Origin: Deltaproteobacteria bacterium
GTDB taxonomy: Bacteria > Desulfobacterota > Desulfobacteria > Desulfobacterales > Desulfosarcinaceae
Length of the DNA: 64,000 nucleotides
NCBI GenBank assembly: GCA_021824175.1
Contig: JAKALP010000014.1
Span: 96,333 to 160,332, forward strand
Direction of reading: 5' to 3'
Numbering within the stretch: position 1 is the first letter of the stretch; each line of letters begins with the position of its first letter. Under the pieces are notes generated by a model, which saw only the letters and a program-made list of their open reading frames with translations, ran no database searches and had not been told where the DNA came from. Both the position numbers and the translations under genes were made by a program. Positions 39,668 through 49,651 of the stretch are shown here, piece by piece.

Positions 39668-41455
39668 ATGATGAAACCACTTAATGAAAAATTACCGGAC
39701 CCCAAAGAGTTAGAGAAAGAGTTGGGTGACTTTCTGGCCAAAAAGTTTGGCGGCTCAGTCAAACTGGCCACACCCATCGTCATGCCCCAGACGGAGATGA
39801 ATGACACGGTTGAAAAGCCGGTGGCAAAAACATCCGACATCAGCTTCGATCTCAAACCCGAAGAGCTGGTGGCTTACCTGGACCAGTACATCATTAAACA
39901 AGAGCGCGCTAAGGCGATCCTGGCCACCAAGATCTGCACCCATTTTAACCGCATCCGATACCGCCAGTCGTTTCCGGATGCCGTCAGCGACATGGTGGGC
40001 AGCATTAAAAACAATATTTTGATGCTGGGGCCCACGGGTGTGGGCAAGACCTATATGATCCGCCTGATCGCCCACAAAATCGGCGTGCCGTTTATTAAAG
40101 GCGATGCCACCAAATTCAGTGAGACCGGCTATGTCGGCGGCGATGTGGAAGATCTGGTACGCGATCTGGTGCGCGAGGCCGACGGGGATATCGAGCGTGC
40201 CCAGTATGGCATCATTTACATCGATGAAATCGACAAGATCGCCTCGGCCCAGAATCTGATCGGCGCCGATGTGTCGCGAACCGGTGTGCAAAGAGCTTTG
40301 CTCAAGCCCATGGAAGAAACCGAGGTGGATCTGAAAGTCCCCCACGATCCTATCTCCATGCTCCAGGAAATCGAACGATTCCGAAAAACAGGTCAGCGCG
40401 ACCGCACGGCGGTCAACACCAAGAATATTCTTTTCATCATGAGCGGCGCCTTTTCCGGATTGGACAAAATCATTAAAAAGCGCCTCTCGGAGCAAGCCAT
40501 CGGTTTTGGCGCCAGTTTTACCAAAACCCACGAAGAGGCGGATATTCTTTCGCGCGTGCGCTCCGAGGATCTGATCACCTTTGGCTTTGAATCCGAATTC
40601 GTGGGGCGTTTGCCGGTGCGGGCGGTTTTCGAGCATCTGACCGAGGAAGATCTCTACACCATCCTGGAGAATCCCAATAATCCCATCATTCTGGGTAAAA
40701 AGCTTGACTTTGCGGCATACGGCATCACCATCAAATTCGATAAGGAAACGCTGCGCTTGTTGGCGCGACGAGCATACGAAGAGAATACTGGCGCCCGTGG
40801 ACTCGTAAGCTCGGTGGAAAAGGCTATGCTGAGTTTTGAAAAGCGGATGCCTTCCATCAACGTAAAAAAGCTGGCCGTCACCAGCGAGGTCATCGAGCAT
40901 GCCCAGGATTGGCTGGCCAAACTCGAACAAGATCCGGAGCTGCCGGAGATGCGCGCCGCTTTTGAAAAAGTCAGCATCGTGGAGAAGGAAGCAATTATTT
41001 CCTACGTCACTAAAAGCAAAACCCATTTGAGTCAGAAGTTCGGGCTGCCTTTGACATCGGAACGCATCGAGCTGATGGCCGACTATTACATCGCCCACAC
41101 CACGGACATTAATGGCGTATTCGATAAGTTCACCCATTTTTATGAAGAAGTAAAAAATATCGAACTGCAGTTTTTGAAAAAACATGGCGTCAATATCGTT
41201 TTTGAAGAAGAAGCCATTGATGCCATGATCATCCAATGGCGCAACGCCAAAGCCGATCTGGATGCCATTTACAAGCAGCTCAGCAACAACCTGGAGTATG
41301 GTTTGAAACTGGTTCGTGAAAAGACGGGGCGAAATCGTTTCTTTCTCAACCGCCAGGCGTTGGATGAGCCGGAAAAGTTTATTGGGCAGTTGCTCAAGGA
41401 GGCCAAGGCTCGTACGGCTGAAACAGCTTCTCTGACCAGCACGAAAAATCAATAA
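39668..41455 (+). CDS. ClpX-like AAA+ unfoldase without zinc domain, with C-terminal extension
   Basis: 595 residues from ATG 39668 or 39671. Residues 60-430 match ClpX: 'LDQYIIKQERAKAILATKI', Walker A 'GPTGVGKT' near 121, 'GDATKFSETGYVGGDVED', Walker B 'IIYIDEIDK' near 181, 'GVQRALLKPMEE' and sensor 2 'NTGARGLVSSVEKAM'. The ClpP-docking loop I278-G279-F280 is present. The N-terminal four-Cys zinc domain of ClpX is absent, replaced by a charged stretch. About 160 extra residues follow position 430, predicted helical ('TTDINGVFDKFTHFYEEVKNIELQFLK' region). The gap to ahbC is 17 bp, so the two are probably one transcript. Confidence 0.88.
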   Translation: MMKPLNEKLPDPKELEKELGDFLAKKFGGSVKLATPIVMPQTEMNDTVEKPVAKTSDISFDLKPEELVAYLDQYIIKQERAKAILATKICTHFNRIRYRQSFPDAVSDMVGSIKNNILMLGPTGVGKTYMIRLIAHKIGVPFIKGDATKFSETGYVGGDVEDLVRDLVREADGDIERAQYGIIYIDEIDKIASAQNLIGADVSRTGVQRALLKPMEETEVDLKVPHDPISMLQEIERFRKTGQRDRTAVNTKNILFIMSGAFSGLDKIIKKRLSEQAIGFGASFTKTHEEADILSRVRSEDLITFGFESEFVGRLPVRAVFEHLTEEDLYTILENPNNPIILGKKLDFAAYGITIKFDKETLRLLARRAYEENTGARGLVSSVEKAMLSFEKRMPSINVKKLAVTSEVIEHAQDWLAKLEQDPELPEMRAAFEKVSIVEKEAIISYVTKSKTHLSQKFGLPLTSERIELMADYYIAHTTDINGVFDKFTHFYEEVKNIELQFLKKHGVNIVFEEEAIDAMIIQWRNAKADLDAIYKQLSNNLEYGLKLVREKTGRNRFFLNRQALDEPEKFIGQLLKEAKARTAETASLTSTKNQ

Positions 41456-41472
41456 GAAAGGATCGCTTTAAC

Positions 41473-42660
41473 ATGATCGGCATTTCCAAACTCTACTGCG
41501 GCACAGTGGAGCCCTCTGATGCATTGCGTTATGGCCGTCACTCTTCTAAACTGCCCAGTCACCTGTTGCAGTTTTCGGAAGACAAACATCCCGTGGTGGT
41601 CTGGAATGTCACCCGGGCCTGTAATTTGAAGTGCGTACACTGTTACGCCCACGCCACGGAAGGCGCTACCAGCAGCGAACTCAGCACCGCGGAAGGCAAG
41701 CTGCTGATTGATGATCTGGCGGCCTTTGGTTCACCGGTCATGCTGTTTTCCGGCGGTGAACCCTTGGTACGCAAGGATCTGCCGGACCTGGCGGCTTATG
41801 CCGTGGAAAAAGGCATGCGGGCCGTCATCTCCACCAACGGCACCCTCATTGACCGCAATACCGCCAAAACCTTGAAACAAATTGGGCTTTCCTATGTGGG
41901 TATCAGTCTAGATGGCTTGGAACCAGTCAATGATCACTTCCGTGGGGTCAAAGGCTCTTTCAAGAAAGCCATGCAGGGGATCCACAACTGCCAGGAGGCT
42001 GGGATTAAGGTCGGCCTGCGTTTTACCATGAACAAGCGCAATGTCCAGGAGATCGGTGGAATATTTGATCTTCTGGAGGAGATGGAAATTCCACGGGTAT
42101 GTTTCTACCACTTGGTCTACGCGGGCCGCGGCTCGGCTTTGCTGAAAGATGATCTGAGCCATGAGGAGACCCGGGCCGCCGTGGATTTGATCATCGAGCG
42201 CACCCGGCAATTGCACGCCATGGGCAAACCCAAAGAGGTTCTGACCGTGGACAACCATGCCGACGGCCCCTACTTGTACTTACGAATGCTCCAGGAGAAC
42301 TCCCAACGCGCACCCGAGGTGCTTAAGCTGTTGCAGATGAATGAAGGCAACAGCTCGGGACGGGGCATTGGATGTGTGAGCTGGGATGGTGAAGTGCATG
42401 CCGATCAATTCTGGCGTCACCACAGTTTTGGCAATGTGCGCAAGCGCCCCTTCTCCAAAATCTGGACCGAACCCGAAGACCCATTGCTATTGCAATTGAA
42501 AGAAAAGAAGAAATTCGTGCAAGGCCGCTGCGCCACCTGCCGCTGGCTGGATGTCTGCGGAGGTAATTTCCGGGTGCGGGCCGAAGCGGTCACCGGCGAT
42601 GTCTGGGCTCCGGACCCGGCATGTTATTTAACTGATGAGGAGATCTCGCAGACGGTTTAA
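41473..42660 (+). CDS. ahbC: Radical SAM 12,18-didecarboxysiroheme deacetylase AhbC
   Basis: 395 residues. The N terminus 'MIGISKLYCGT...DALRYGRHS' is characteristic of AhbC. The radical SAM cluster is C50-x3-C54-x2-C57 ('CNLKCVHCYA'), with 'FSGGEPLVRKDLPDL' and 'GISLDGLEPVNDHFRGVKGSF'. The C-terminal SPASM-type cysteines ('GRCATCRWLDVCGGNFRVRA') hold a second cluster. It converts 12,18-didecarboxysiroheme to iron-coproporphyrin III in the siroheme-based haem route. Genes ahbA/ahbB and the siroheme genes are not in the window. hemB starts 12 bp later. Confidence 0.93.
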   Translation: MIGISKLYCGTVEPSDALRYGRHSSKLPSHLLQFSEDKHPVVVWNVTRACNLKCVHCYAHATEGATSSELSTAEGKLLIDDLAAFGSPVMLFSGGEPLVRKDLPDLAAYAVEKGMRAVISTNGTLIDRNTAKTLKQIGLSYVGISLDGLEPVNDHFRGVKGSFKKAMQGIHNCQEAGIKVGLRFTMNKRNVQEIGGIFDLLEEMEIPRVCFYHLVYAGRGSALLKDDLSHEETRAAVDLIIERTRQLHAMGKPKEVLTVDNHADGPYLYLRMLQENSQRAPEVLKLLQMNEGNSSGRGIGCVSWDGEVHADQFWRHHSFGNVRKRPFSKIWTEPEDPLLLQLKEKKKFVQGRCATCRWLDVCGGNFRVRAEAVTGDVWAPDPACYLTDEEISQTV

Positions 42661-42672
42661 AAGGAGTAAACC

Positions 42673-43650
42673 ATGTTATTCCCCGACTACCGCCCCCGCC
42701 GCATGCGTCAGAACGAAGCGTTCCGCCGCATGGTGCGCGAAACCCAGCTCAACGTCGATGATCTGATTCTGCCGCTATTTGTTGTGGGCGGTAAAGACAT
42801 AAAAAATCCCATCCCCTCCATGCCGGGACATTATCAATTTTCCACTGATCATCTCGTAAAAGCGGCTCAACAGGCGCGTGATTTGGGCATTCCGGCGGTC
42901 ATTCTCTTTGGCCTGCCATCCAAAAAAGATCCACTGGCCACCCAGGCCTATGCTAAAGACGGGGTAGTCCAGAAAGCGATCAAGGCCATCAAAGATAAAA
43001 TCCCGGATCTGGCGGTCATTACCGATGTCTGCTTGTGTGCTTACACAGACCATGGCCATTGCGGCGTGGTAGAGGGGCACACCATTGACAATGACGCCTC
43101 GTTGGACCTGCTGGCGCGCACCGCGCTCTCCCATGCCAAGGCCGGTGCCGACATGGTGGCGCCTTCGGATATGATGGATGGTCGGGTGGCTGAGATCCGC
43201 AATGCGCTTGATGAGGCTGAAATGAGCCACATCCCCATTATGTCTTACGCGGCCAAGTACTGCTCAGCTTATTACGGCCCTTTCCGGGAAGCAGCCGAAT
43301 CAGCGCCCAAGTTCGGCGACCGGCGCACCTATCAAATGGACCCGGCCAATGCTCGTGAAGCACTGCGGGAAGTCAACATGGACGTGGAAGAAGGGGCCGA
43401 TATCATCATGGTGAAGCCGGCCCTGGCCTATTTAGACATTATATGCCGGGTCAAGGATGAGTTCGACCTGCCGGTGGCGGCTTACAATGTGAGCGGTGAA
43501 TACTCCATGATCAAAGCCGCGGCGGAGCGCGGTTGGCTGGACGGCCGGTTGGTGATGATGGAGACATTAACAGCCATCAAACGGGCCGGCGCGGATATGA
43601 TTTTGACCTATTTCGCCATGGAGGCGGCCCAAGTATTAAACAAGCGTTAA
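42673..43650 (+). CDS. hemB: Porphobilinogen synthase (delta-aminolevulinic acid dehydratase)
   Basis: 325 residues with AAAGGAG before the ATG. Zinc-site cysteines are in '[14 protein letters not shown]'. The two active-site lysines are in '[17 protein letters not shown]' and '[11 protein letters not shown]', and '[14 protein letters not shown]' and '[11 protein letters not shown]' complete the family pattern. It condenses two 5-aminolevulinate molecules to porphobilinogen, the common step for siroheme, haem and cobalamin. Its place between ahbC and ahbD ties early tetrapyrrole supply to haem output. Confidence 0.97.
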
Positions 43651-43695
43651 TGCACCGAGCGCGCATTATTCCAAAAAGAACCAAGGGAAATAACC

Positions 43696-44802
43696 ATGTC
43701 GCACCCTGCCACTCATCCTCATCATGGACACCCGCATGCATCCGGCCATCATCCTGATTCGTCCACCCTGCGCCTCGTAGCCTGGGAGACAACGCGCAAT
43801 TGCAATTTATCGTGTGTCCATTGCCGAGCTTCGGCGACCAGCGGTCCTTATACCGGTGAACTGGATACACCAGCCGCTTTTCGGTTGCTCGATCAAATTG
43901 CCGAAGTGGCCAAGCCAATCATTATCCTTACCGGTGGCGAACCCCTTTTACGCGAGGATATTTTTGACATTGCGTCCTACGGCACCGCCAAAGGGTTGCG
44001 CATGGTTATGGCCCCTAATGGTACGCTTGTCACCAGAGAGACCGCTCAGAAGCTGGCCAAAGCCGGAATTCAACGCATCAGTGTGAGCATCGATGGCGCT
44101 ACAGCGCAGAGTCATGACACTTTCCGAGGTGTGCCCGGCGCATTCGAAGGCGCATTGAAGGGTATTGAAAACGCTAAATCAGCGGGCGTCGAATTTCAAA
44201 TCAACACCACCATCACCAAAACCAATCTCAACCAGATCCCCAGCATTCTGCGGCTGGCCGAACAGCTTGGGGCTGTGGCCCACCACATATTCCTCCTGGT
44301 GCCCACCGGGCGCGGCAAGTATATTGTGGACCAAGCCATAGACGCTAAGGAGTATGAAGATACCCTCAACTGGTTTTACGATCAGCGCAGCAAAACCAAA
44401 CTGCAGCTCAAGGCGACCTGCGCGCCCCACTATTATCGCATCCTGCGGCAACGGGCCAAGCAAGATGGTCAGAGCGTCACCTTTCAGACCCATGGCCTGG
44501 ACGCAGTAACCCGCGGATGCCTGGCCGGAACCGGTTTTTGTTTTATCTCCCACCGGGGCATCGTGCAGCCGTGCGGTTTTCTGGATTTGAACTGCGGCGA
44601 TGTCACCAAGCAATCCTTCGTTGAGATTTGGAACCATTCATCCCATTTCAAAACCCTCCGCGACACCAACCAGCTCAAAGACAAATGTGGTGTTTGTGAA
44701 TACCGTAAAGTCTGCGGCGGTTGCCGTGCCCGGGCTTACGAAGCTACCGGCGACTACTTAACCGCCGAACCACTCTGTTTATATGATCCAGCCCAAGAAT
44801 AA
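43696..44802 (+). CDS. ahbD: Radical SAM haem synthase AhbD
   Basis: 368 residues. A His-rich start ('HPHHGHPHASGHH') precedes the radical SAM motif C36-x3-C40-x2-C43 ('CNLSCVHCRA'). 'LTGGEPLLREDIFDIA' and 'SVSIDGATAQSHDTFRGVPG' follow, and the C terminus has 'KCGVCEYRKVCGGCRARAYEATGD', the second iron-sulfur site. AhbD oxidatively decarboxylates two propionates of iron-coproporphyrin III to the vinyl groups of haem b. The His-rich tail could bind metal, but it is variable in the family. A GGGAAATAACC ribosome-site region precedes the ATG; the gap to hemB is 45 bp. Confidence 0.92.
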   Translation: MSHPATHPHHGHPHASGHHPDSSTLRLVAWETTRNCNLSCVHCRASATSGPYTGELDTPAAFRLLDQIAEVAKPIIILTGGEPLLREDIFDIASYGTAKGLRMVMAPNGTLVTRETAQKLAKAGIQRISVSIDGATAQSHDTFRGVPGAFEGALKGIENAKSAGVEFQINTTITKTNLNQIPSILRLAEQLGAVAHHIFLLVPTGRGKYIVDQAIDAKEYEDTLNWFYDQRSKTKLQLKATCAPHYYRILRQRAKQDGQSVTFQTHGLDAVTRGCLAGTGFCFISHRGIVQPCGFLDLNCGDVTKQSFVEIWNHSSHFKTLRDTNQLKDKCGVCEYRKVCGGCRARAYEATGDYLTAEPLCLYDPAQE

Positions 44803-44996
44803 TGTCTTATGGTTCAAAGCGAAAAAAGCTGATACTCGCGCATTAATGGCGAGGATCGCACCGCACCAAACCATGCGCTTCCCGTCCTGCGAAGTAAAAG
44901 CCAACTAATGCATCTTCAAAAAACCTCTTGTTGGCGCATAAATATCAGTGGTATATCCATAATGTAGATAATGCCACCTATCGAAAGGGCTGGGGA

Positions 44997-45602
44997 ATGA
45001 AAATCAAATCCATGATGGTGCCGAATCCTATTACGGTCACCACCAAACAGTCCGTTGAAGAGGCTTTGGAATTGATGAAAGTCAATTCCATTCGACATCT
45101 TCCGGTAGTGGATGCAAAAAGTCGGCTTAAAGGATTATTAACCCTGGCTGACCTGAAACGGGCGCTGTTGCCATCGATGCTGGGTGACTTGACCCTGGCC
45201 GATATGATGATCACAAATCCGATTACAGTGTCTCCCGATGATGATGTCGAAATTGCCGCTCAAATCATCTATAGACACAAGATAAGTGGACTGCCTGTGA
45301 TCAAAGGACAGCGGCTGGTAGGCATTATCACCGAATCGGACTTGCTGCGGGCTTTCATTGATATGATGGGGATATTGGCCAGCAGCGCCAGAATCGATGT
45401 GGTGACCAGTGATGAACCTGGTAGTTTGAATCGAGCCATCCAGATCATTCACGATCAGGGTGGGGACATTATCAACGTCGGAATGACGGCCCAACGAACC
45501 ACCAAACGTACTTACTTTTTCCGCTTGGTGCCTTGTGACATGCTACCAATCAAAGAGGCATTGGAAAGCGGGGGATTTAACGTGCAGGCGGTGATGGAAT
45601 AA
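44997..45602 (+). CDS. AcuB-like protein with two CBS domains and an ACT domain
   Basis: About 201 residues from ATG 44997 (MKIKSMMVPNP); a frame opening at 44928 adds residues unlike the family. CBS1 is about residues 5-60 ('VEEALELMKVNSIRHLPVVD') and CBS2 65-130 ('DDVEIAAQIIYRHKISGLPVIK', 'LVGIITESDLLRAFI'). An ACT-like domain follows at about 135-200 ('PGSLNRAIQIIHDQGGDIINV'). CBS pairs bind adenine nucleotides and ACT domains bind small metabolites, so this is probably a ligand sensor. It lies 16 bp (or 46 bp) upstream of a membrane protein gene. The target is unknown. Confidence 0.85.
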   Translation: MKIKSMMVPNPITVTTKQSVEEALELMKVNSIRHLPVVDAKSRLKGLLTLADLKRALLPSMLGDLTLADMMITNPITVSPDDDVEIAAQIIYRHKISGLPVIKGQRLVGIITESDLLRAFIDMMGILASSARIDVVTSDEPGSLNRAIQIIHDQGGDIINVGMTAQRTTKRTYFFRLVPCDMLPIKEALESGGFNVQAVME

Positions 45603-46580: not shown

Positions 46581-46883
46581 ATGCGCGAGCCTGAGCTTCC
46601 GATAACCACGAATATCTCGGACGACGAGCGAAATGATCTGGAGCAGATGATGGGGGAGTTCCAGCAGGCTCAGAAACCCGCATCTTCAAATCCAGTCACC
46701 ATGCGCCAAGAGATCGATATGTTAAAAGACCGTATGACATATCTAACCAATATGTGTGTTTCCCTCGAACGCAGTATCAAACCGTTGCATGAAGTGATTC
46801 GATTGAATATAGAAAAATGCGAAATATTGAACCAGCGCATTAACACCATTATTGAATCGTTGCGTGCAGGAGAATCGCTGTGA
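46581..46883 (+). CDS. Hypothetical 100-residue coiled-coil protein
   Basis: Starts two bases after the AMIN gene stop and overlaps the next gene by 4 bp, so it is embedded in the operon. Residues 15-35 are acidic and residues 40-97 form a heptad-like helix ('MRQEIDMLKDRMTYLTNMCV', 'LHEVIRLNIEKCEILNQRI'). There is no signal peptide or membrane segment. I do not recognise a family. The tight packing suggests a structural partner of the adjacent AMIN or PilZ protein. Confidence 0.7.
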   Translation: MREPELPITTNISDDERNDLEQMMGEFQQAQKPASSNPVTMRQEIDMLKDRMTYLTNMCVSLERSIKPLHEVIRLNIEKCEILNQRINTIIESLRAGESL

Positions 46884-48076
46884 CATTGAAGTTTGCATTT
46901 ACCTCCGCCGGAGATCCAAAGAGCAGTATTATGCAGCGCATCCTCGATGGAACACTGGCTGTGCGTTCTCCCGAAGAACTCAAGGAAGTATTGGACATTT
47001 ATCCGGAAGATCCCTTTTTGCATCGCAAATATGCCGATCTGCTTCAACAGGCGAAGCGCGCTGATGAAGCTGCGGCGGCCTATAATGAAGCTGCAAAGCT
47101 TTTCATACTCAATGGCATGAATTTGCAGGCCGTCGTGGCCAAAATTCTCCAATGGCGTATTCAGAATACCAATCACGATCAGGGCCGCGCTTTTCATCGT
47201 TTACTCCGCAAAGAAGGCCACACCCAAACACCTTTGCAGCACTTTTGGGCCAATATGACCTACCCCGAATTGGTGGCGGTCATGCGGCGAATGGTGCGAA
47301 TGCAACTGCCAGCGAGTAGAACGATAACACGCGCGGATGAACCGGCGGAGAATCTCTTTTTCGTGGTCTTCGGCACGCTGTACGAAATGCCATCCCCCGA
47401 GTGTGTGAGCGAGGCAAAACTGGCCGGTCTGGAAATAGAGCCCGCACTACTAGGCCCCAATGATATCTTCGGGGATATTTTCCCTTTGAACAAAAATACG
47501 GTCAATGATGCGGAAATCCGCACCGCTACGGATGTGGAGTTGATCCGAATTACGAAACCCGTTCTGATTGAGTTATGCCAAAAATATCCTGGCATCGAAA
47601 AGATACTATCGGAGATCAGAAAGCCGGAAAATCGTGAAAACTGCGACCGCCCCTGGCAGACCGTAAGACGCGCCATGCGTTTTGGCCTGCCGACCAAAAC
47701 GGAAATCACCTGTCCAGCAGCTGACAGCAGTCAAAAACATTGGCACCACTCAGGTATTGCGTTGGATCTTTCACTGGGCGGCATGTGCGTGGATTTGGCC
47801 GATGCGCCTCTGCCAAGCATTAAAAAGGGACTCAAGGGCCGGCCAGTGAAAATCAAGCTTGACTTGCTCAATGATGTGGCGGTTTTGAACCTGACAGGTA
47901 AAGTAGTCTGGGAAAAACGCCAGAAAAAAGCGGAAGGGCCTTTCACGCTCATCGGTATCCGATTCGATACCCTCAACGCCATGGACCGCGATATGCTCAA
48001 CGAGTATTGTTCCGGTAGCGTAGGTGAACAAAACCTATTGTGGGGCCTATGGGACATGATGGTGAAACCCGATTGA
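46880..48076 (+). CDS. TPR / cyclic-nucleotide-binding-like / PilZ three-domain protein
   Basis: 398 residues from GTG 46880 (AGGAG upstream). Residues 30-85 form a TPR-like helical pair ('FLHRKYADLLQQAKRADEAAAAYNEAA'). Residues about 120-250 resemble a CNB domain ('PASRTITRADEPAENLFFVVFGTL', 'LGPNDIFGDIFPL'), but the phosphate-binding Arg-x-Ala signature is replaced by N-D-A-E, so cNMP binding is doubtful. Residues about 265-390 are a PilZ domain with an R-R-A-M-R segment and 'ALDLSLGGMCVDL' (D-x-S-x-x-G), able to bind c-di-GMP. It overlaps both neighbours and probably relays c-di-GMP levels to the MinD-type ATPase. Confidence 0.8.
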   Translation: MTLKFAFTSAGDPKSSIMQRILDGTLAVRSPEELKEVLDIYPEDPFLHRKYADLLQQAKRADEAAAAYNEAAKLFILNGMNLQAVVAKILQWRIQNTNHDQGRAFHRLLRKEGHTQTPLQHFWANMTYPELVAVMRRMVRMQLPASRTITRADEPAENLFFVVFGTLYEMPSPECVSEAKLAGLEIEPALLGPNDIFGDIFPLNKNTVNDAEIRTATDVELIRITKPVLIELCQKYPGIEKILSEIRKPENRENCDRPWQTVRRAMRFGLPTKTEITCPAADSSQKHWHHSGIALDLSLGGMCVDLADAPLPSIKKGLKGRPVKIKLDLLNDVAVLNLTGKVVWEKRQKKAEGPFTLIGIRFDTLNAMDRDMLNEYCSGSVGEQNLLWGLWDMMVKPD

Positions 48077-49041
48077 ACCAAAACCTCGAACTGAATCATC
48101 ATCCTAAAAACATGCAAACGGATCAATTTCCCAAACATCATCCTGGAATATGGGCGGTCGGCGGCGGCAAAGGCGGCGTAGGTAAAAGCGTTATCAGTTT
48201 GCTGCTATCTCTGGCCCTATCCCGCTGTGGCCAAAGAACCGTATTGGTGGATGCCGATTTAGGCGGCGCCAATCTACATACCCTGATGGGCATTAAAACC
48301 CCGGCAAGAACCCTTAACGATTATTTGACCCGCAAATATGAAACATTGGAAGAGGTTTGCATTCGTACGGATATAAAGAACCTCGAATTGATTTGCGGCG
48401 CCAGTGAAATCCTATCCTTTGCCAACCCCCTATTTGCTCAAAAAACCAAAATGGCCCAAAGCATTCTGAATTTGGCCGTGGATCATGTGGTTCTAGATCT
48501 GGGGGCTGGCGCAAGCTACAATGTCTTGGATTTTTACCTCATTGCCAAATACCCCGTGGTTGTGCTCACGCCCCAGCCCACTTCCATTCACAATGCCTAT
48601 GGGTTTGTGCGGAACACCGTCTACCGCAGACTAAGTCGGTATGTCAGCCAGAAGCCTTCACTGCAAGAGATAGTTCAAAAGGCCATGGACCCCAAAAATA
48701 ATAATCAGATGCGAACCATCTCCGATTTATTTGCTACCGTACGTAAATCCCATGGCGAAAAAGTTGCATTCTACCTCACCAAAACCATCGCCAAATTCAG
48801 ACCGTTACTGATTACCAATATGGCCCGCAACCCTAAGGATGGGAATGCCAGCCGGATCGTTCAAATGGTGGCGGAGAAATATCTAACGTTGGAAGCCCAG
48901 GAATTGGGAGCAATGGAGTATGATCCCCTGCTCGAAGAGATGATTAATAAGATGATCCCTCTGTCCGAGCTGCCCAAATACAGCAGGTCCAATCTCACCG
49001 CGGACCGCATCGTTCAAAAGCTGATTGGTTGCACCCCGTGA
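48049..49041 (+). CDS. MinD/ParA-type (FlhG-like) P-loop ATPase
   Basis: About 330 residues. The start is uncertain (GTG 48040, ATG 48049 or ATG 48112); an upstream start overlaps the PilZ gene by about 28 bp. The deviant Walker A 'GGGKGGVGKSVIS' carries both Lys residues of the MinD/ParA superfamily. 'RTVLVDADLGGANLHTLMG' is the switch strand and 'HVVLDLGAGASYNVLDFYLI' the Walker B region (with 'DLGAG' as in FlhG/FleN). No DNA-binding domain is present, so a role in placing a surface machine is more likely than plasmid partition. No amphipathic C-terminal helix like MinD is evident. Confidence 0.88.
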   Translation: MGHDGETRLNQNLELNHHPKNMQTDQFPKHHPGIWAVGGGKGGVGKSVISLLLSLALSRCGQRTVLVDADLGGANLHTLMGIKTPARTLNDYLTRKYETLEEVCIRTDIKNLELICGASEILSFANPLFAQKTKMAQSILNLAVDHVVLDLGAGASYNVLDFYLIAKYPVVVLTPQPTSIHNAYGFVRNTVYRRLSRYVSQKPSLQEIVQKAMDPKNNNQMRTISDLFATVRKSHGEKVAFYLTKTIAKFRPLLITNMARNPKDGNASRIVQMVAEKYLTLEAQELGAMEYDPLLEEMINKMIPLSELPKYSRSNLTADRIVQKLIGCTP

Positions 49042-49057
49042 CCATGAGCCCCATTAT

Positions 49058-49651
49058 CTAAAATATCTTAGCAATCAGGGTATTGATGATTTCGCGCTGG
49101 TAGTGGGTGATATTTTCATATTGCACCCCTATGCCATCAGGGTAGATTTGGGTAACACGGCCCTTGACTTTGAATGGCATTAACTCAGTGGCTTCCCCCA
49201 GGGTAAAACATAGGGCCACCTCCTGATTTTGTTCAAAGCCATCAGCGGTTTCGATAAAAACGCCATCAGCACTGATATCACGAATGCAACTGCGGTAGGC
49301 CTTACCTTTAGCAGCAAAATCTACGAGCAAAAAGCAATCCAGGCGAGGATATTCTCGTACCCATTTCAAACCCGGCTTATCTAGAAATGCCAGACGATCG
49401 AGAAGCGTATTTCGGTTCAACTGGTTGATTAATACAAATATGCGAGCGATAATCATTTGCCGTCTTATCGCTTCGTTCTTTTCACTGGGCAATCGGGAAA
49501 GAATGTCATCCTGCCGTTCAATGGCGTTGGCTGTTTTTTCTTCCAATGCTTCCAGAATCGAATGCAGCTCCGGCTCCATCATTTTGTAAATGGATACGGC
49601 CAGACGTAGAACGATGGTATGCTTCTCGATCTGCTCCATTGTATAAGCCAT
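49058..49651 (-). CDS. PilZ domain protein with helical N-terminal region
   Basis: 197 residues; AAGGAG precedes the ATG. Residues 1-90 are helical and charged ('EQIEKHTIVLRLAVSIYKMM', 'NAIERQDDILSRLP'). Residues 95-195 form a PilZ domain with R-E-Y-P-R, the c-di-GMP-binding arginine motif, and 'IRDISADGVFIET' (D-x-S-x-x-G). It faces the MinD-type ATPase gene tail to tail with a 16-bp gap. Together with the TPR-PilZ protein, this puts two likely c-di-GMP effectors on either side of one ATPase. Confidence 0.88.
   Translation of the reverse strand: MAYTMEQIEKHTIVLRLAVSIYKMMEPELHSILEALEEKTANAIERQDDILSRLPSEKNEAIRRQMIIARIFVLINQLNRNTLLDRLAFLDKPGLKWVREYPRLDCFLLVDFAAKGKAYRSCIRDISADGVFIETADGFEQNQEVALCFTLGEATELMPFKVKGRVTQIYPDGIGVQYENITHYQREIINTLIAKIF

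Follow-up and report, generated by a model that had tools for sequence, protein, structure and literature searches.

Glutamyl-tRNA reductase is under proteolytic control in enterobacteria. In mitochondria, ClpX activates 5-aminolevulinate (ALA) synthase by partial unfolding (PMC7077987), and the single-domain receiver CpdR is described as an adaptor of ClpXP in Caulobacter (PMC8973945). The role of the RKH loop of ClpX is treated in a third report (PMC7112951). The gene described here lies in a stretch of 64,000 nucleotides from a Deltaproteobacteria bacterium (GenBank assembly GCA_021824175.1, contig JAKALP010000014.1), hereafter called the window, and encodes a ClpX-like protein ahead of the haem-synthesis genes ahbC, hemB and ahbD (Table 1). 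Its product belongs to a clade of second ClpX-type unfoldases that is distinct from canonical ClpX, and this clade adjoins haem-synthesis genes in most of the genomes of the phylum that were read. We tentatively propose, with a rough probability of 0.36, that the unfoldase acts on an enzyme of the haem pathway by unfolding, remodelling or turnover, with HemB as the likeliest client.

The window protein has the general features of a ClpX-type AAA+ unfoldase, namely Walker A and B, an aromatic pore-1 loop and a sensor-2 Arg. Motifs were counted either in 146 of 158 family frames, with the window included, or in 145 of 157, with the window excluded, the remainder being frames that were short or held runs of N. 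In the alignment of the 146 frames, Walker A and GYVG were found in all, the Walker B pattern in 138 and GAR in 143; GYVG was also present in 59 of 59 canonical ClpX proteins. The IGF position read IGF in 127 of the 146, MGF in 12, LGF in 6 and VGF in 1, and 17 canonical proteins varied alike. The window sequence itself has Walker A, Walker B, GYVG, IGF, an Arg finger and GARGL. Because the motor motifs are kept, ATP-driven unfolding by the ClpX-like protein is to be expected, and, as the IGF position is also kept, the protein is probably able to dock ClpP.

The same protein scored below the cut-offs of both ClpX equivalog models in NCBIfam (327.3 against 359, and 300.3 against 370.75; the models for canonical ClpX are NF003745 and TIGR00382), and zf-C4_ClpX (PF06689) gave no match in it. 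The N-terminal zinc Cys pattern was found in 0 of 145 family frames, whereas it was present in 59 of 59 canonical proteins, and the RKH motif, which is not in the window protein, was found in 1 of 145 family frames versus 58 of 59 canonical ones. Of 146 family members, 145 had a pore-2/RKH segment of 34 residues, compared with 23 residues in 17 of 17 canonical proteins. Furthermore, a tail of at least 90 residues after GAR was present in every family frame whose GAR could be read (142 of 145) and in none of the 59 canonical proteins. In the window protein this extension consists of a helical portion up to about residue 480, followed by a core of about residues 480-577, and it resembles the small AAA+ domain of ClpX both by sequence profile and by fold; it is thus probably a duplicated small AAA+ domain. 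The full-length AlphaFold model had a mean predicted local distance difference test (pLDDT) score of 81.5, and its best Foldseek matches were ClpX chains (E 8.3e-27). A preliminary description, made from the letters of the window, had already noted the lack of a zinc domain, the intact Walker A/B motifs and IGF loop, and a C-terminal extension of about 160 residues; all of these were found, although the extension is longer than had been stated, at about residues 404-595.

The gene is a paralog and not the only clpX of the organism. A canonical ClpX with a zinc domain is encoded at a separate place in the same genome (G000:C34), with clpP immediately upstream, and a ClpX with a zinc domain was also found in 40 of 40 further genomes carrying the ClpX-like gene. 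There was one strong match to ClpP in the window's genome (295 bits), which adjoins the canonical clpX, the other five matches reaching at most 33 bits. This genome also has a separate hslU next to an hslV-like frame (judged by eye); an in-frame TGA that seemed to lie inside hslU was rejected as such, because it sits upstream of the gene. In a tree of 93 rows, the clade with the extension was separate from 15 canonical ClpX proteins with a Shimodaira-Hasegawa-like approximate likelihood-ratio (SH-aLRT) value of 100, which agrees with the separate clade that the preliminary description had suggested looking for; the tree was built by a quick method, with no bootstrap, from 93 of 100 rows, seven having been dropped because trimming left short fragments. 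When haem neighbours were mapped as a label on this tree, three changes were needed, compared with a mean of 28.3 for shuffled labels. The Verrucomicrobiota and Latescibacterota rows fall outside most of those from Desulfobacterota, within which rows linked to hemB, among them L008, L010 and L262, form early branches; the support is moderate. From this we infer, as to the root and the direction of change as well, that the gene was recruited to the haem block once, close to the base of the Desulfobacterota branch, and that switches to other neighbours came later. The named close relatives of the window's organism are Desulfatitalea and Desulfosarcina, and the carriers of the second ClpX would therefore belong to bacteria related to known sulfate reducers, presumably Desulfobacterota.

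Throughout this work, the order means the order of the window, from which all listed rows of the class search came, and G and L denote labels of genomes and loci, respectively. The extension model matched 277 of the 298 genomes of the class search. Neighbourhoods were read for 116 loci of the order, one per genus (114 genera had a match) and two more, with the positions of neighbours taken from tblastn. In 108 of these 116 loci, AhbC was located downstream in the same orientation, the distance being no more than 0.3 kb in most and never above 2.6 kb; the count is 109 with L143, in which the start of ahbC stands before a run of N. HemB came first in six of the remaining seven loci, and in the other (L216) the contig ends 2 nt past the ClpX-like gene. 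Between the ClpX-like gene and ahbC the median gap was 39 nt (124 loci, of 133 with a placed first gene), a few of the gap lengths being inflated by broken ClpX frames. HemB was seen in 92 of the 108 loci with a downstream AhbC; among the other 16, eight have less than 5 kb downstream, two (L151 and L172) hold runs of N, and six are longer. Since the next commonest neighbour family after those of Ahb and HemB was found in only 31 of the 116 loci, general synteny does not explain the linkage to ahbC and hemB. With ahbC downstream in 109 of the 116, the order of the ClpX-like gene and ahbC exceeds chance. Within the order, therefore, the conserved link to tetrapyrrole genes that had been proposed from the window held up, and the clade was neither as frequent away from ahb genes as beside them nor the sole clpX. 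In one genome (G196, with loci L143 and L232), the ClpX-like gene is followed by the start of an ahbC that is cut by N, and elsewhere there is a complete ahbC together with hemB; this could reflect a duplication or a join made during assembly.

Genomes in which AhbC was not found bear on the choice between AhbC and HemB as the client. Five genomes of the order, from five families (G209, G228, G249, G267 and G286), gave no AhbC match at E 1e-100 and HemE matches of 431-452 bits, which suggests a different late haem route, that is, a pathway switch. In all five, hemB is the first gene after the ClpX-like gene, at a distance of 41-312 nt, and the ClpX-like gene is kept in five of the six genomes of the order that are positive for HemE and lack AhbC. 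Two further genomes, G250 and G254, had only AhbC matches below the cut-off and no HemE; hemB follows the gene in G250, and in G254 the contig ends after it. HemE gave no match in eight ahbC genomes of the order (G000, G159, G162, G088, G004, G028, G211 and G236) and none over the cut-off in six ahbC carriers from outside it (G401, G314, G331, G365, G528 and G626). Outside the order, 12 genomes with HemE and without ahbC were read, which are part of the 56 carriers of the clade without ahbC, one more having a contig end; in seven of the 12 (G384, G660, G419, G459, G506, G668 and G525), hemB was next to the ClpX-like gene or came after one small receiver gene. The gene is also next to hemB in L008 and L010, whose genomes have no AhbC match. 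The gene thus tends to keep to hemB in genomes that lack ahbC, and in those that have ahbC it remains beside that gene, whether or not hemB is there too.

HemB is preferred over the Ahb enzymes as a client, since genomes in which AhbC was not found retain the gene next to hemB, and in lineages without Ahb it is HemB, not the Ahb enzymes, that can be the client. The preliminary description had suggested that the protein may serve as an activator or inserter for the radical S-adenosylmethionine (SAM) enzymes AhbC and AhbD. The position of ahbC in the order would fit such a role, as would its adjacency to the gene in 59 of the 80 genomes from outside the order for which both places were listed and the loci, described below, in which the gene is with ahbC and hemB is not near. 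Nevertheless, the idea of the Ahb enzymes as the dedicated target was not supported, since the five genomes of the order and seven of 12 from outside it keep the gene by hemB without Ahb, while the gene is missing from ten ahbC genomes of the order and from 82 of the 194 ahbC genomes outside it. The Ahb radical-SAM enzymes were rejected as sole clients for these reasons, and a role as their activator is very unlikely.

Several observations weigh against a dedicated link of the unfoldase to HemB or to haem synthesis at all. In six loci of the order (L116, L119, L184, L187, L206 and L226; at least 9.5 kb read, no run of N) and four from outside it (L246, L248, L255 and L261; at least 6 kb read), ahbC accompanies the gene and HemB was not seen downstream, so that HemB was rejected as an always-linked partner, not being found within 6-10 kb in these ten loci, and the weight of the HemB reading is reduced. 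Linkage alone cannot choose between AhbC and HemB. The termini of HemB showed no tag specific to carriers when 110 HemB proteins beside the gene were compared with 10 that are truly without it; the 17 sorted as "without" include L271-L275 and L280, which are beside the gene, and L232, which is from a carrier genome, and some were cut at the end of the stretch. Among the 21 genomes of the order without an extension match, 20 were searched for ahbC, and ten had a full-score match and one a fragment; hemB is close behind ahbC in nine of these ten, and the ClpX-like gene is therefore not strictly needed. G017, the sixth genome of the order with HemE and no AhbC match, has no such ClpX, its assembly being 87% complete, and the other five of the 12 genomes from outside the order with HemE and without ahbC (G301, G304, G533, G437 and G371) have a DnaJ or Lon-like gene near the ClpX-like gene instead of hemB.

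The wider distribution adds to these points. In an even draw of 394 genomes of the phylum, the clade was present in 186 and an AhbC match at E 1e-150 in 212; in the 374 of them from outside the order, the clade was found in 168, ahbC in 194 and both in 112. The two co-occur there with an odds ratio of 3.0 (p 3e-7, relatedness being ignored). A survey of ahbC neighbours had been proposed in the preliminary description; beyond the order, the two genes were apart in 21 of the 80 genomes mentioned above. In 30 neighbourhoods from outside the order, ahbC was next to the ClpX-like gene in ten, hemB was next or behind a small receiver gene in seven, a DnaJ gene was next in six, none of these was found in six (by eye, a Lon-like gene was nearby in two of them and a PpiD-like gene in one) and a contig end followed in one. 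The DnaJ-type gene stands directly after the ClpX-like gene in L249, L252, L253, L254, L277 and L278. These DnaJ-type genes overlap it or lie at most about 32 nt away, a J domain and DnaJ_C were found in the one tested, and the two genes would form a pair of an unfoldase and a J-protein. Furthermore, 12 loci from Verrucomicrobiota and Latescibacterota have no haem genes nearby within the stretch read; ten of these genomes gave no AhbC match at E 1e-100, and two had a match under the cut-off. Because of these 12 loci, the family of the ClpX-like protein is wider than its haem link.

It is therefore about as likely as a HemB client that the protein is a general second ClpX-type unfoldase for quality control, for which the haem operon is merely the site of expression, since DnaJ and Lon-like neighbours and verrucomicrobial relatives are found. 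The ten genomes of the order that keep ahbC without the gene are also consistent with a general role. In contrast, the retention of the gene by hemB without AhbC, and by ahbC without a near hemB, while the other neighbours vary, would be unexpected for a borrowed promoter.

If HemB is the client, as we tentatively propose, the protein may act as follows. Since the zinc domain and the RKH motif have been lost, the choice of clients would change; the usual ClpX tags would not be taken, and clients might be selected at the pore entrance, which is altered, by the extension or with the help of a small partner protein. With the IGF position kept, docking to the one clear ClpP of the genome could lead to the degradation of misassembled or surplus HemB, and where ClpP is absent from the complex, HemB could be remodelled rather than degraded. 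Overall, this would be an unfoldase that is able to work with ClpP and that controls the quality or the dosage of a tetrapyrrole enzyme, in the first place HemB, and it may have a role in tetrapyrrole control. In its most specific form, that of a dedicated, tag-independent ClpX-type machine which has duplicated its small AAA+ domain, shed the zinc finger and the RKH loop, and sets the amount or the assembly state of HemB, the proposal is rather unlikely. The same holds for the suggestion that such a HemB machine is the bacterial counterpart, one pathway step further down, of mitochondrial ClpX acting on ALA synthase. Alternatively, the protein could be a ClpP-docking unfoldase whose clients are different enzymes of early tetrapyrrole synthesis, for example glutamyl-tRNA reductase (HemA), with ahbC and hemB being just co-regulated neighbours. 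This would fit the linkage to ahbC or hemB alike, as well as the I/M/L/V-G-F tripeptide at the IGF position in 146 of 146 frames, and it is nonetheless improbable, as hemA was not recognised among the frequent neighbours in the order, where no search aimed at a link to hemA was made.

A small partner may be encoded in some of the loci. In five loci of the phylum (L255:10132-10494, L262, L274, L275 and L280), a gene for a small receiver-like protein separates the ClpX-like gene from hemB or ahbC; Response_reg scored 47.5 bits for the one tested, and the position of the expected phospho-Asp is Arg in four and Glu in one, by eye. It is possible that this protein is an adaptor of the ClpX-like unfoldase, because the single-domain receiver CpdR is such an adaptor of ClpXP.

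In the window itself, the close-packed block of four genes on the plus strand, with 17 nt between the ClpX-like gene and ahbC, was confirmed by the coordinates and by NCBIfam matches as the preliminary description had given it (Table 1); ahbC and hemB are 12 nt apart, and hemB and ahbD 45 nt. A scan of the window locus for promoter-like and terminator-like sites gave no more than the level of shuffled sequence. The N-terminus of AhbD (43696-43774) has a His-rich stretch, about 25 residues long, ahead of the radical-SAM core. Downstream of ahbD, a protein with two CBS domains is encoded at 44928-45602, and a CBS-type neighbour family was found in 31 of the 116 loci of the order. Farther downstream, the stretch 46880-49651 codes for a protein with cyclic-nucleotide-binding and PilZ domains, an ATPase of the ParA/MinD type and another PilZ protein.

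Table 1. Genes of the window locus and parts of the ClpX-like protein (positions in the window).
Feature	Position	Strand	Details
ClpX-like AAA+ unfoldase paralog gene	39668..41455	+	595 aa; ATG 39668, stop TAA 41453-41455
Walker A GPTGVGKT, residues 121-128	40028..40051	+	alignment
Pore-1 loop GYVG, residues 154-157	40127..40138	+	145/145 family frames
Pore-2/RKH segment, 34 residues (canonical 23), without RKH motif	40313..40414	+	
IGF tripeptide, predicted ClpP-docking loop, residues 278-280	40499..40507	+	aligned position
Small AAA+ domain with sensor-2 GARGL	40637..40918	+	
C-terminal extension, residues 404-595	40877..41452	+	AF2 pLDDT 92.4
Probable duplicated small AAA+ domain inside extension, residues 480-577	41105..41398	+	
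ahbC (12,18-didecarboxysirohaem deacetylase)	41473..42660	+	ATG 41473; TIGR04546 763.6 bits (cut-off 650)
hemB (porphobilinogen synthase)	42673..43650	+	NF006762 526.8 bits (cut-off 297)
ahbD (haem b synthase)	43696..44802	+	TIGR04545 568.4 bits (cut-off 500)

No literature on such a ClpX with hemB or ahbC was found in open-licence papers, judged by titles and the openings of abstracts. If the proposal is true, the mitochondrial pair of ClpX and ALA synthase would have a bacterial parallel in an unfoldase dedicated to an enzyme of haem synthesis. The lineages in which the HemE route has apparently replaced the one via sirohaem are a natural experiment in which the Ahb enzymes are removed as clients, and they make the question of the client directly testable. 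In addition, the added module resembling a small domain is a new architecture for the study of the ClpX ring and of its contact with ClpP.

Among known systems, canonical ClpX shares with the window protein the AAA+ core, Walker A/B, GYVG, the sensor-2 GAR and the IGF position, and the nearest solved relatives are ClpX chains. The clade differs from it in having no zinc domain and no RKH motif, a pore-2/RKH segment of 34 instead of 23 residues and an extra C-terminal module resembling a small domain; the window protein is below both equivalog cut-offs, and its gene is not beside clpP. HslU (TIGR00390) is the second-best equivalog model after ClpX with 177.7 bits, which is far under its cut-off of 362.45, and the genome has a separate hslU. 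The pairing of ClpXP with CpdR is similar in that the gene of a small receiver-like protein is near the ClpX-like gene in five loci of the phylum. It differs in that Arg or Glu replaces the phospho-Asp (by eye), the window locus has no receiver gene there, and CpdR binds the N-terminal part of ClpX, which is missing from the ClpX-like clade. The link between mitochondrial ClpX and ALA synthase is biochemical, whereas the one described here comes from genomes only and has AhbC and HemB as the neighbours; in both cases a ClpX-type unfoldase is tied to an early tetrapyrrole enzyme, and the mitochondrial system is the nearest functional parallel.

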